Source: Gottschalkia acidurici 9a
Lineage (GTDB): Bacteria; Bacillota; Clostridia; Tissierellales; Gottschalkiaceae
Assembly (NCBI RefSeq): GCF_000299355.1
Contig: NC_018664.1
Coordinates: forward strand, 1,299,115-1,363,114
Direction: 5' to 3'
DNA length: 64,000 nt
The position numbers and the translations under genes were made by a program. Of the stretch, positions 17,024 to 42,762 are shown piece by piece. Under the pieces are notes generated by a model, which saw only the letters and a program-made list of their open reading frames with translations, did not search any database and had not been told where the DNA came from. How positions within the stretch are numbered: position 1 is the stretch's first letter; each line of letters opens with the position of its first letter.

Positions 17024-17590
17024 ATGAGAATAAACAATCTTGACGATACTTTTGCTACAGGGGGAGAAGATAATTTACAGCATGCTATAAAACTATATGG
17101 TCAACCTCTTTTGAGATATTGCCACAATATACTTTGTGACTACTTTGAAGCTCAAGATGCAGTACAAGTAACGTTTATTAAAGCCTATAAGAAAAGGAAA
17201 AGCTTTAAAAAAGGAACATCATTATCTGCTTGGTTATATCGGATTGCATATACAACTTGTATAGATTCTCTAAGAAAGAAAAAATTATTATTCTTTATGC
17301 CACAAACAAAGATAGACTCAAAATCTTTTGTATTGAACATAAATAATGACTCAAACTTTATAAGTGAAGAGTTAAGATTAGCACTTCTAACTTTATCCCC
17401 AGCAGAACGTGCCCTAGTATTTGGTAGAGTTATTGACGAAAAAAGTTACAAAGAGCTAGAAGCTATTCATGGAGTTTCTGCTACAACTTTACGTAAACGT
17501 TATGAAAGAGCAAAAATAAAGTTATCAAAAGCGCTACAAGAAGCTGATTTTTATTACAAAGAATTGGAGGTAACTAACAGTTACAAATAA
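17024..17590 (+). CDS. sigma-70 family (ECF-like) RNA polymerase sigma factor
   Basis: This 188-residue sigma factor contains region 2 (LLRYCHNILCDYFEAQDAVQ through SLSAWLYRIAYTTCIDSLRK) and region 4 (LLTLSPAERALVFGRVID then YKELEAIHGVSATTLRKRYERAKIKL, a helix-turn-helix). No region 1 or 3 is present, as in ECF sigma factors. ATG follows AAAGGAGG. Its expected operon partner is the DUF4179 membrane protein at 19507, but an IStron now lies between them. A GGAGG in the last codons (17566-17570), 20 bases before the stop, looks like the ribosome site once used by the next gene. Confidence 0.9.
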   Translation: MRINNLDDTFATGGEDNLQHAIKLYGQPLLRYCHNILCDYFEAQDAVQVTFIKAYKKRKSFKKGTSLSAWLYRIAYTTCIDSLRKKKLLFFMPQTKIDSKSFVLNINNDSNFISEELRLALLTLSPAERALVFGRVIDEKSYKELEAIHGVSATTLRKRYERAKIKLSKALQEADFYYKELEVTNSYK

Positions 17591-17639
17591 CTTATAAAAA
17601 GTTATAAAACACTATAGCTATTTAATAAGTTAGAAAATT

Positions 17640-18060
17640 GTTGACAGCCTCCCATGTTCATAAAGAGCATGGAGAGATAGATCTAAACTATCCAAAATCC
17701 TTTGAATTGCTGGAAACTCGTAAAGCTACTTAAACTACAACATAATCTGAAAAGATAAGTGTGAACGTTGCGAAAGCAGAAAAAATTAAGTAGATAGGAT
17801 ATGGTTAAATCCTAAGTTCTTTAATAATCGACAATCAGCAGGTAAGACTCTAAGTTACATTTAGTAATATGAGTAAACTTCAACGACTATCCCAAAAGGG
17901 AGTACACTACAAGCCATTGGTAGTGGAAGCGGAGGACACCTAAATAGTGAAAGAAAATCATTTAATGGGTGATGATATAGTCTACGCTTATGTGAAAACA
18001 TAAGAAGTTCATGGTCTATAGCCTGAGAACTGTATATGTCTAGCGAACATATATGAATGA
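17640..18060 (+). ncRNA. group I intron catalytic core of the IStron (5' part)
   Basis: Core elements can be read in order. P2-like hairpin CTCCCATG/CATGGAGAG is near 17648-17676. P strand GAATTGCTGGAAAC (17704-17717) can pair through GCTG with CAGC in the Q strand ACAATCAGCAG (17831-17841), forming P4. R strand GACTAT (17885-17890) and S strand ATAGTC (17977-17982) form a perfect 6-bp P7. P9 is CTTATGT-GAAA-ACATAAG (17987-18004), a 7-bp stem closed by a GNRA tetraloop. These are the conserved group I signatures. The 3' splice site must lie at the far end of the element, after tnpB. P1 and the 5' splice site were not resolved. Confidence 0.82.
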
Positions 18061-18179
18061 GCATAAAACCTATAGAAAGCTATAAATATATAATTAAATA
18101 CAACGCAAAAGAACAACTGTTTATTTCATACTTCACTAAGTCACCAACCTGTATTATACTGGATAAAAGGGGTGAGACA

Positions 18180-19307
18180 ATGATAAAGTCAGTAAAAATA
18201 AGACTACTACCTACAGCACAACAGGAAATATTAATGTTTAAATCAGTCGGAGTATCAAGATTTGCATATAACTGGGGATTAGCTAAATGGTAAGAAGAAT
18301 ATAAGAGAGGTTTAAAACCTAATGGTAAATCTATAAAAAAGAAATTTAACAATGACATTAAAAAACAGGAAAGCTTTAAATGGCTATATGAAGTTTCATC
18401 ACAAATAACATCACAGGTATTTACGGATTTACAACAAGCTTTTAATAACTTTTTTAAGAAGACAGCTAACTATCCCAAGTTTAAATCTAAGAAAAAATCT
18501 AAACAATCATTTTATGTTAGATATGACAGAATGAATATAAAAGAGGATACAGTAAACATAGAAAAGATAGGAAGAGTAAAATTTACTACCAACTATAAAA
18601 TACCTATACTAGAAAAATACAATAATCCTAGATGTAGCTTTGACGGGAAGTATTGGTACTTAACATTTGGTTACGAACACGGCGAAAACCAAGTCGAGTT
18701 AAATCAAGATTTAAGTATAGGAATAGACCTAGGAATATCAATACTTGCAGTAATAAATTGTTTGGATAGTCCGATTAAAAACATTAATAAATCTAAAGAA
18801 GTTAGAAGATTAAAAAAGAAATTAAAAAGACTACAAAGACAGGTAAGTAGAAAGTATGAAATGAATAGAGAATTTAATAAGTTTATAAAAACTAGCAATA
18901 TAAAAAAGTTAGAGAAACAGATTACATTAGTCCATAGAAAATTAACAAACATAAGAAATAATCACATACATCAAGCTACTAATAAAATAATTAAAATGAA
19001 ACCATATAGAGTAGTTATGGAAGACTTAAATATTAGTGGAATAATGAAAAACAAACACTTATCAAAATCAATCCAAGAGCAAAAATTATATGAATTTACT
19101 AGGCAAATGAAATATAAATCTGAATTCAATGGAATAAAATTTATCCAAGTAGATAGATTTTTCCCTAGTTCTAAAATGTGCAGTAAGTGCGGAAATATCA
19201 AGAAAGATTTGAAATTATCTAATAGGTTATATGCTTGTGAATGTGGATTAGAAATAGATAGAGATAAAAATGCTAGTATAAACTTAGGTAACTATAAAGT
19301 ATCGTAA
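18180..19307 (+). pseudogene. tnpB: TnpB RNA-guided nuclease with premature ochre stop
   Basis: One continuous frame from ATG 18180 (RBS GGGGTGAG) to the stop at 19305 encodes a 375-codon TnpB, except for TAA at 18291 (codon 38), where relatives have Lys (AKW-K-EEYKRG). A single base change AAA/AAG to TAA explains it. The rest is intact: RuvC residues Asp183 (IGIDLGI), Glu281 (VVMEDLNI) and DRDKNAS near 360-366, and a zinc finger CSKCG...CECG. TnpB cuts DNA at donor sites under omega-RNA guidance and helps IStrons persist. Re-initiation at 18531 would give 258 residues lacking the N-terminal recognition region, so nuclease function is probably lost unless the stop is read through. Confidence 0.85.
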
Positions 19308-19440
19308 GTTCACCTACAAGAAGTATGGTACTATGTAGAATGCGTTGTATCCGAATTTAAGCCCTTGGAGTACTATATCAAACAAGAGTAGATTAACTTA
19401 GGATAATCGAAATAGGGTACGACGAACAGGGAATAAAAGT
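19308..19440 (+). ncRNA. probable omega/guide RNA region at the IStron 3' end
   Basis: Noncoding sequence immediately after tnpB, rich in short stems and ending in GGGTACGACGAACAGGG. In IS605/IStron elements the omega RNA overlaps the 3' end of tnpB and reaches the right end, using flanking DNA as guide. Assigned by position only; secondary structure was not computed. Confidence 0.45.
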
Positions 19441-19506
19441 AGAACTTAAAATTACAAATTATTATATATTTATAGAATTTTATAGGTTTTATGCAACGGT
19501 AGTAAA

Positions 19507-20862
19507 GTGAAAAAAGACTTTGATGAAAAAATTATAAAAAGCGCACTAGATAATATAAGAACACCTGAATATGATATTTTTTCAAAAGTTGAAAAAGAAA
19601 TTAAGAATAAAGAATCTAATATTAGCTTTAAAAAAGCAATTTCAGTCGGGGTAGCGATATGCTTATGTTTAACACTTTCTGTTGGAGTTATGGCAGCTAC
19701 TATTCCAAGTTTTAATAAACTTTTATCTGTTGTTAGTCTAGAAATAGCTTCAATACTTCAGCGTGTAGAGGTCAGTAGTGAAGATAACGGAATAAAGATG
19801 GAAGTAATAGCCGCTATGAGTGACGATGAAACAACAGTTATCTATTTTACAATGCAGGATTTAACAGGTGATAGGATTGATGAAACCCTCAACATATCTG
19901 ATTATGGAATGAGCAAAGGAAGTATGTTCACTTGTGAACTGGTTGATTATAATAAGTCAACCAAAACTGCAACTTTACGTATGGAATCTAATGGTGGAGA
20001 AAAGATAAATAATGAAAAAGTAGAATTTAATATAAGATCATTTGTTGGTGACAGATCAATACTTCATGGAATTGATACGGGTATTACCATAGTAGATATA
20101 TTAGCAGTTAAAGATTCACAAACAATTCCATTTGATATGAAAAATCTATCGGGTATAGGTGGTGATTTAATTGAGGAACTCAGATCACAGGACACAATAG
20201 AATTGTTGAAAGTAGATCAAATGAATCTTACTTTGCCTAAAATAGATCTTATGCATATTTCTAATATAGGGTATATTGATGGTAGACTTCATATCCAGAC
20301 TAAATGGTCGAGAGATAGGGTTAATGATTATGGAGACTTATATCTTGCTGATAGTTCAGGAAATACTCTAGATGTTAGAATGTCAAACGTTTATTTTGGA
20401 GTAAATGAGTCGAATGAGGCAACATATGGAAATGGATATATTGAATATATCTTTGATATAGATAAAACAGAGCTTAACGAGGTAAAACTTATGGCGACTT
20501 TTACTTCAAATCGTAACTATACAGAAGGGAACTGGAAAACTTCATTTAAAATAGAGGCCATTGAAGAACAGAAGAAAATCGACTGCAATATAGAACTAGG
20601 TACAGGGTCTATAGATAGCATTTCAGTGTCACCATTAGGAGTAACTTTAACTGGTAGTGTAAAAGATATTCCTTCTTATGACTCTATTTCTGTTAGCATT
20701 AATATGAAAGATGGTAGCACTAAAACCTTTAGCACACGAGTATCATCTGTTGAAGATGGAAAGACTAAGCTTAAATACATGCCTTCTTTGCCTTTAGATC
20801 TTTCATTAATTAAATCAATTAATATTAATGGAACTATCATAAAGATGAACTCTTTAAAATAA
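19507..20862 (+). CDS. DUF4179 membrane protein, probable anti-sigma partner
   Basis: The 451-residue protein has a cytoplasmic N-terminus (FDEKIIKSALDNIRTPEYDIFSKVEKEI), one membrane helix (about residues 45-64) and a large extracellular beta-rich region. This is the DUF4179 plan usually encoded right after an ECF sigma factor and thought to sequester it. The start is GTG 19507. There is no convincing Shine-Dalgarno before it (only ACGGTAG), whereas the end of the sigma gene has a GGAGG. Precise removal of the IStron from mRNA may therefore help its translation. The signal sensed is unknown. Confidence 0.82.
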   Translation: MKKDFDEKIIKSALDNIRTPEYDIFSKVEKEIKNKESNISFKKAISVGVAICLCLTLSVGVMAATIPSFNKLLSVVSLEIASILQRVEVSSEDNGIKMEVIAAMSDDETTVIYFTMQDLTGDRIDETLNISDYGMSKGSMFTCELVDYNKSTKTATLRMESNGGEKINNEKVEFNIRSFVGDRSILHGIDTGITIVDILAVKDSQTIPFDMKNLSGIGGDLIEELRSQDTIELLKVDQMNLTLPKIDLMHISNIGYIDGRLHIQTKWSRDRVNDYGDLYLADSSGNTLDVRMSNVYFGVNESNEATYGNGYIEYIFDIDKTELNEVKLMATFTSNRNYTEGNWKTSFKIEAIEEQKKIDCNIELGTGSIDSISVSPLGVTLTGSVKDIPSYDSISVSINMKDGSTKTFSTRVSSVEDGKTKLKYMPSLPLDLSLIKSININGTIIKMNSLK

Positions 20863-22488: not shown

Positions 22489-22720
22489 TAAAAAAACTCG
22501 TCCTCTAATAATATTAAAGGACGAGTTGAACCCGCGGTACCACCTTAGTTACACCAAAAAGATATCTCTTTAAGCCGTTATCGAGGCTAGTCGGTATCAA
22601 CTAATAGGAAAAACCTTTCGCAGATACTGCTTAGGAGTGAGTGTATATTACTAAAGTATCGGTTCACACCAACCACCGACTCGCTGCAACTTATCATAAA
22701 ATACTTATCTCCATCATTGC
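22489..22720 (-). promoter_or_regulatory. T-box leader, leucine (CUC) specifier, upstream of leuA
   Basis: Reverse-strand leader. Stem I is closed by GGAG (22709-22712) with CTCC (22634-22637). The specifier CUC (22641-22639) is followed by the usual purine A. The T-box AAGGTGGTACCGCGGG is at 22530-22545, and a terminator CTCGTCCT/AGGACGAG with a U run is at 22489-22527. Uncharged tRNA-Leu should favour antitermination and leuA expression. Confidence 0.93.
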
Positions 22721-22765
22721 TTTATAGATTAATTTAAAATTATGCGTTTACTTGAATTATTATGT

Positions 22766-32980: not shown

Positions 32981-33000
32981 AAAACTTATAAAATAAAAAA

Positions 33001-33110
33001 CTCATCGAGAGAGATTGAGGGAACTGGCCCAATGAAATCCGGCAACCGAGCTTGTGCTAAGGTGCTAAATCCAGCGGTATAGCCAAAAAAATTGGTATCC
33101 GGAAGATGAG
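33001..33110 (+). promoter_or_regulatory. SAM-I (S-box) riboswitch
   Basis: P1 CTCATC/GATGAG encloses the S-box core: GAGAGATTGAGGGAACTGGCCC, ATGAAATCCGGCAACC, GGTGCTAAATCCAGC and a P4 arm before GGAAGATGAG. A terminator follows at 33124. SAM binding should stop transcription before metA. Confidence 0.96.
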
Positions 33111-33123
33111 GGAGCGATACAAA

Positions 33124-41880: not shown

Positions 41881-42135
41881 CAAAAACTCGTCCTCAAAAT
41901 AAGGACGAGTTATAACCCGCGGTACCACCTTAGTTATGTCATAAAGACATCACTCACTGTCAGTTCTACTAAACCTAAGTCTTTAACGGGACTAATCGGT
42001 ATCAACTACTAAGTATAAAACTTTTCAAAGATACTGCTCAGGAGTGATTCGTATTTTATCGATAGCATCAGTTCTCACCAAATCCTGACTCTCTGTAACC
42101 ACCTACTAAAAAATACCTTTCTCCTTCTTGGCATT
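41881..42135 (-). promoter_or_regulatory. T-box leader, isoleucine (AUC) specifier, upstream of cimA
   Basis: Reverse-strand leader. Stem I base is GGAG (42124-42121) with CTCC (42044-42041). Specifier AUC (42048-42046) is followed by A. T-box AAGGTGGTACCGCGGG is near 41916-41931, and terminator CTCGTCCT/AGGACGAG with T tail is at 41881-41910. The T-box and terminator closely resemble the leuA leader, suggesting a common origin with a changed specifier. Confidence 0.93.
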
Positions 42136-42194
42136 TTGCAATAAGGAAGCTTATAATTTCCTACATGCAAATAGAAAGAATTAAATTATTTAAT

Positions 42195-42386: not shown

Positions 42387-42490
42387 ATTCATTAATAATT
42401 AAACACAAAAATAATTAAACAAACAGAACCATGTATTTTACTTTATTCCAAACTTTAAATATTAGAGATAAAATAAAAAATTGAAAAATT

Positions 42491-42762
42491 TTGATAGAGA
42501 CAAAAATACTAACACTATCAACTACAGAGAGCTAACAACTGGTGAAAGTTAGCGTTGATAGTAGTATATAATGATCACTCTTGAATTGCTGAATTGAAAA
42601 GGATACTATATTCTTAGTAAATGAGGTCGGTGCTACCGTTAAATAGCTATGGTTCAAAATGAGGCAATAATTTATTATTGTGAATTAGGGTGGTACCACG
42701 AAAGTAAATCTTTCGTCCCTTATAGTTAAGAAACTATGAGAGATGAAGGATTTTTTTTATAA
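42491..42762 (+). promoter_or_regulatory. T-box leader, isoleucine (AUC) specifier, upstream of ilvC
   Basis: Stem I base AGAG (42496-42499) with CTCT (42578-42581). Specifier AUC (42574-42576) is followed by A. T-box AGGGTGGTACCACG is at 42687-42700. A long imperfect terminator stem (about 42708-42754) with a T run follows. The gap to ilvC holds about 170 further AT-rich bases with no gene. Back-to-back with the cimA T-box, it puts both halves of isoleucine synthesis under tRNA-Ile charging. Confidence 0.93.

Follow-up and report, generated by a model that had tools for sequence, protein, structure and literature searches.

We analyzed a window of 64,000 nt from Gottschalkia acidurici 9a (GCF_000299355.1, NC_018664.1, positions 1,299,115–1,363,114, forward strand), in which a mobile element separates the Shine-Dalgarno (SD) sequence of a probable anti-sigma factor gene from its start codon. 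The features of the locus, numbered by position in the window, are the following.

17024–17590, plus strand: ECF-type sigma factor gene (Pfam Sigma70_r2 and Sigma70_r4_2)
17566–17570, plus strand: SD sequence GGAGG of the downstream gene; its last GG is the insertion target, and the predicted 5' exon ends here
17571–19499, plus strand: IStron of 1,929 bp, from TAACTAACAG to TATGCAACGG, with ends common to two other copies in the genome
17647–17652, plus strand: internal guide sequence GCCTCC, which forms P1 with GAGG and the first intron U in predicted folds
17648–18004, plus strand: group I intron core (RF00028, 83.8 bits)
18061–18094, plus strand: 5' arm of an AU-rich inverted repeat around the ORF region, complementary to 19461–19494 at 31 of 34 positions
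18180–19307, plus strand: tnpB (OrfB; Pfam and ORF list), with TAA at codon 38
19362–19433, plus strand: RAGATH-18 RNA, the guide-RNA scaffold of IS607 TnpB (RF03064, 61.3 bits)
19461–19494, plus strand: 3' arm of the inverted repeat, partner of 18061–18094
19500–19506, plus strand: spacer TAGTAAA from the right end of the element to GTG; putative start of the 3' exon, and of the guide
19507–20862, plus strand: probable anti-sigma factor gene with a GTG start (DUF4179, 33.8 bits)

A first-pass annotation of this DNA had recognized a group I intron core by P4, P7 and a GAAA-capped P9, and all of these motifs are present: P4 as GCTG/CAGC, the P7 strands as GACTAT (17885–17890) and ATAGTC (17977–17982), and P9 as the hairpin CTTATGT-GAAA-ACATAAG (17987–18004). 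The covariance search with group I models that it had proposed bore out the reading. The core matches RF00028, the general Rfam group I family, over the full model length (83.8 bits, E 2.4e-21, gathering score 50), and the scan of the whole window at gathering threshold does not list this match. All three copies in the genome start with TAACTAACAGTTACA and finish with TTTATGCAACGG, so the IStron spans 17571 to 19499 rather than the 17640–19440 first assigned to it. Of the other two copies, one aligns with almost the entire element at 79%, and the other at 82% over the first 1.5 kb and at 73% over the last 0.3 kb. The tnpB gene encodes HTH_OrfB_IS605, OrfB_IS605 and Cas12f1-like_TNB domains (Pfam), begins with ATG at 18180 and is interrupted by a nonsense TAA at 18291–18293. 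Copy 2 has lost the frame as well, through a stop and a frameshift, and copy 3 through a deletion; tnpB is thus broken in all three full copies, yet the intron core is kept. The dN/dS of the window gene is near 0.15 (0.119/0.80 and 0.188/1.25, against copy 3 and an intact relative, L215), which places it under selection until fairly recently.

The element is a new IStron of group B and of an ordinary kind. A group I intron stands upstream of OrfB inside one element, which follows GG and ends in CGG (GGAGG before it, CAACGG at its close, ends read from three copies); group B IStrons are described as inserting after GG and ending in CGG (PMC4227781). The same source gives the group B fold as a U.G pair at the splice site with an internal loop after it, and a U.G pair one base inside the intron, then an internal loop, is found in 5/5 predicted folds. 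The inverted repeat (34 nt, 31 complementary) is 79% AT, just below the stated >80% AU, with a stated length of 15–34 bp. Hairpins that would suit subclass IA2 (P7.1/P7.2, P9.0–P9.2) can be made out by eye and also in the consensus fold, the model being the general RF00028 only. The window element thus resembles BcISt1 and CbISt1–4 as described in PMC4227781 in joining a group I intron to OrfB after GG with a CGG 3' end, in a first intron base U after G with U.G and then an internal loop, and, but for the slightly low AU share, in a long AU-rich inverted repeat that encloses the ORF. For BcISt1, a group B member, that paper reports splicing after G in vivo. Unlike the group B description in that paper, the window element sits at an SD sequence, its guide matches that SD and its own orfB is broken. 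An IS607-type orfA is absent from the window copy according to the ORF list; it is not required of every group B copy, since the published table has orfB-only or truncated-orfA members.

The first-pass annotation had described an intron fused to an IS605-type tnpB. The fusion stands and the OrfB is IS605-like by Pfam, but both the ends and the guide RNA are IS607-type, and the label of IS605-type element was rejected. Behind tnpB lies a RAGATH-18 RNA (61.3 bits), and RNAs derived from RAGATH-18 are described as the guide RNAs of IS607 TnpBs (PMC11061315). The direct succession of the two and the G-rich AGGAG/GAGGG at the site are as in that system; unlike it, the window element has an intron fused in front and lacks an intact nuclease gene, given the TAA at codon 38. 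It is conceivable, if improbable, that some other TnpB encoded in the genome employs this guide RNA in trans and that the copy is kept for its guide and not for splicing. The window RAGATH-18 RNA scores above gathering, and long open tnpB frames occur in other IS607 elements of the genome, both in keeping with such a use, but the RAGATH-18 RNAs of copies 2 and 3 do not reach the gathering score (43.3 bits).

At the insertion site, the left flank ends in TTGGAGG and the right flank starts with TAGTAAA-GTG. When the flanks are joined, the last residues of the sigma frame are ELEVVK, its TGA stop overlaps the GTG start of the gene behind it, and 7 nt separate GGAGG from that GTG. As read with the element in place, the IStron left end supplies the last sigma codons (VTNSYK, where the empty-site frame ends VVK). 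The earlier placement of the element exactly between the two genes holds for the sigma/anti-sigma junction but not to the letter, the insertion lying within the last three codons of the empty-site sigma frame, between the embedded SD and the GTG start. Comparison with genomes having the empty site had also been suggested. Relatives of the downstream gene supplied 21 junctions, of which 15 were distinct over 49 nt, and 13 of these consist of TTGGAGG or TTGGGGG, then 7–9 nt, then ATG. One further junction (L059) reads ATGGAGG, 5 nt, ATG, and the sole exception (L058) lacks such an SD. The SD-start junction is thus kept in 14/15 distinct relatives, and no insert was found at the junction in any of the 15. 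A sigma-like ORF lies directly upstream in 14/15 loci (by eye; L049 checked with Pfam), and the view that sigma and anti-sigma genes are normally adjacent is supported by the uninterrupted junction in 14/15. DUF4179 is described as restricted, apparently, to ECF30-type anti-sigma factors (PMC6066255), and here it is found beside an ECF sigma gene. With DUF4179 in the downstream protein and a sigma-like ORF upstream in relatives, the anti-sigma reading is well founded, and 19507–20862 probably encodes an anti-sigma factor.

The position of the element between SD and start codon has a counterpart inside the intron. CCUCC is the core of the 16S anti-Shine-Dalgarno. The guide sequence imitates it, since GCCUCC can pair with GGAGG. 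In the minimum free energy folds of the 5' ends of five IStrons of the same subfamily (5/5), GAGG plus the intron U1 is paired with GCCUC, and an internal loop comes next in all five. The consensus fold has this P1 in 5/5 as well. The minimum free energy folds have z scores of −4.95 to −6.66, and no shuffle was as stable. Across the five IStrons neither the pairs of P3 and P4 nor the bases of P7 vary, and 28 of 134 predicted pairs show two-sided change. The P8 loop of the window intron carries an insertion relative to the four relatives, which we count against the explanation that follows.

On these grounds we consider it likely that splicing of this group B IStron rejoins the anti-sigma SD to its GTG and that full translation of the gene depends on it. 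In the unspliced transcript, GAGG and the first intron U would pair with GCCUC as P1, and the SD would be both masked and 1.9 kb away from the start codon. If the intron were to cut itself out behind GGAGG and behind the closing CGG by the group I reaction, TAGTAAA-GTG would again follow directly on GGAGG, the predicted ligated product being GGAGG-TAGTAAAGTG. Because the SD would be masked and distant before splicing and rejoined by it, the anti-sigma gene would be fully translated only from spliced RNA, and the unspliced RNA would presumably be poorly translated at the GTG, with a shift in the sigma/anti-sigma balance. The sigma protein would barely change either way, ending in VTNSYK or VVK. 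The first-pass suggestion that anti-sigma output may fall without splicing gains a concrete basis, as SD and start codon lie in different exons. A similar arrangement is known from the c-di-GMP aptamer/group I intron of C. difficile, where it depends on splicing whether a ribosome-binding site (RBS) precedes a start codon (described in PMC3984707). Unlike in that system, the 5' exon of the window element contains an entire RBS, and the intron is part of a transposable element. No aptamer of the C. difficile kind was found at the window element.

In two cases an IStron of the same subfamily has split a coding sequence at Gly-Gly codons. One (L184) lies in the phosphofructokinase gene pfkA, where the PFK match of exon 2 begins at profile position 8, and the other (L113, copy 3 of the genome) in a chromate transporter gene, where the match behind the element begins at profile position 18 (both Pfam). 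A phosphofructokinase gene split in this way should be a serious burden unless its RNA is spliced, from which we infer that L184 splices. The tnpB of L184 is a long open frame. These two insertions, together with the intact and conserved core helices and P1, speak against a different account of the locus, in which the IStron no longer splices usefully and is an ordinary polar insertion, with less anti-sigma output and a sigma factor that is partly unrestrained. That account, which we regard as unlikely, would fit the broken tnpB of the window and the occurrence of intron-less elements at the same kind of site, which shows that such insertions are tolerated.

To place the site in a wider context, we surveyed 249 genomes of the order Tissierellales and 398 of the phylum Bacillota, the G. 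acidurici genome included. In the order, RAGATH-18 gave 55 matches in 22/249 genomes, 10 of them in G. acidurici. An element was scored as positive if, 4–10 nt beyond its right end, a reading frame of 30 codons or more began with ATG, GTG or TTG; right ends were set by the terminal motif and missing right ends were counted as misses. By this test a start codon follows 46/55 elements of the order (40/44, plus 6/11 added later, 3 of these 11 being scored as misses for want of a recognizable right end). Copy 3 passes the automatic test and lies in coding sequence, so that on inspection 40/44 becomes 39 and 46/55 becomes 45. In G. acidurici 9/10 pass the automatic test. As a control, the same test was applied within the 64 kb window of this one genome only, with 21/59 GGAGG sites, 15/29 AGGAGG sites, 304/3153 sites with any GG and 6599/127400 of all positions scoring positive. 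The rate in the order (40/44) exceeds the GGAGG rate (21/59, P 6e-9). In the phylum outside the order we found 47 matches in 16 genomes, which are not independent (two genomes have 9 each); 30/47 are followed by a start codon, a higher rate than that of GGAGG sites (P 8e-5) but with no clear excess over AGGAGG sites (P 0.06).

Both ends could be located, and the flanks joined, for 25 elements. The joined site reads SD, spacer and start in 20/25, is Gly-Gly coding sequence in 3/25 (pfkA, chromate transporter and crcB, by Pfam) and is neither in 2/25. Left ends were located with patterns that demand GG and were chosen by hand in these 25, so the GG itself is not evidence and only the wider GAGG, AGGG/GGGG and GGAG are. 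The site is not special to sigma factors; it is one case of a family habit of lying between SD and start. The idea that the element was placed there because of the sigma/anti-sigma pair was rejected, the same placement being found before unrelated genes.

The habit may also be read as survivorship, in that IS607 would insert at GG indiscriminately and its copies would last only where they break no coding sequence. We hold this to be quite possible, if somewhat short of an even chance. IS607 is reported to require (G)GG at its target for transposition, no other pattern having been noticed (PMC6188088); in the window, 15/29 AGGAGG sites already stand before a start; and outside the order the excess over that rate is weak (30/47, P 0.06). 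However, survivorship predicts many intergenic sites without a start codon, and only 2/25 joined sites are of this kind; the order stands at 40/44 against 21/59 GGAGG sites (P 6e-9); and the TAM of IS607 TnpBs is given as AGGAG in 18/22 strains and GAGGG in 4/22 (PMC11061315). The published TAM AGGAG is itself a Shine-Dalgarno. The broader proposal, that RAGATH-18/IS607 elements are transposons of ribosome-binding sites, put and kept in SD/start gaps by virtue of an SD-like TAM, and that in IStrons an anti-SD guide masks the SD until splicing restores the ribosome site, so that splicing gates translation of whichever gene follows, seems to us evenly balanced.

Many RAGATH-18 elements without a recognized intron, and so with no evident means of splicing, occupy SD/start gaps too, for example before an argB-like amino-acid kinase gene and a glgC-like nucleotidyl transferase gene (Pfam). 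Genes at such sites must be able to do without their SD or make up for its loss, and these relatives are a real objection to a strict dependence on splicing. They raise the question of how the genes behind intron-less elements are translated without their SD. The G. acidurici genome itself holds seven further IS607/RAGATH-18 elements without a recognized group I intron (L104–L110); six of them directly precede a start codon, and the seventh (L105) splits crcB.

We found neither the placement rule between SD and start nor the anti-SD-like guide in print in the open-licence literature searched. A link of IS607, TnpB or IStrons to Shine-Dalgarno sequences did not appear in its titles and abstracts, the main text of PMC4227781 has no mention of Shine, ribosome binding or start codon, and the main text of PMC11061315 has none of ribosome, Shine, RBS or start codon. 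Three published facts combine here: IS607 needs GG, TnpB recognizes AGGAG/GAGGG and group B splices after G. Read together, they imply that these elements settle at ribosome-binding sites. The placement rule is a testable prediction of where RAGATH-18/IS607 elements lie, and a sigma/anti-sigma pair is a natural candidate for splicing-gated translation. A 2024 study is said to have dealt with IStron splicing versus guide RNAs.

Group I introns in other settings were also detected. RF00028 gave 43 matches in 31/249 genomes of the order. We viewed 30 intron regions, namely 29 of the 40 matches outside G. acidurici and one solo intron of that genome, and excluded them from the placement count. Among the listed regions, those at the 3' ends of flagellin-like genes occur in many genomes (L116, L120, L130, L172–L175, L177 and L179–L183, by eye), and others apparently interrupt tmRNA genes (L188, L190, L194, L196 and L197, by eye). 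The solo intron (L111, 2339–2642, minus strand; 32.8 or 37.7 bits) has no tnpB that we could see. Its flanks can be read as AAGGAG before and ACTTTAC-ATG after the intron, again an SD/start gap, with a guide GCTCC and a 3' end that is a guess. Similarly, two group I introns of another genome (L185 and L186, in G001) follow TGGAG with a guide GCTCC and have no RAGATH-18 match; L185 is followed by a long ORF whose end is TnpB-like by eye. Elsewhere in the window we noted three T-box leaders (22514–22726, 41898–42138 and 42482–42723) and one SAM riboswitch (32999–33112).
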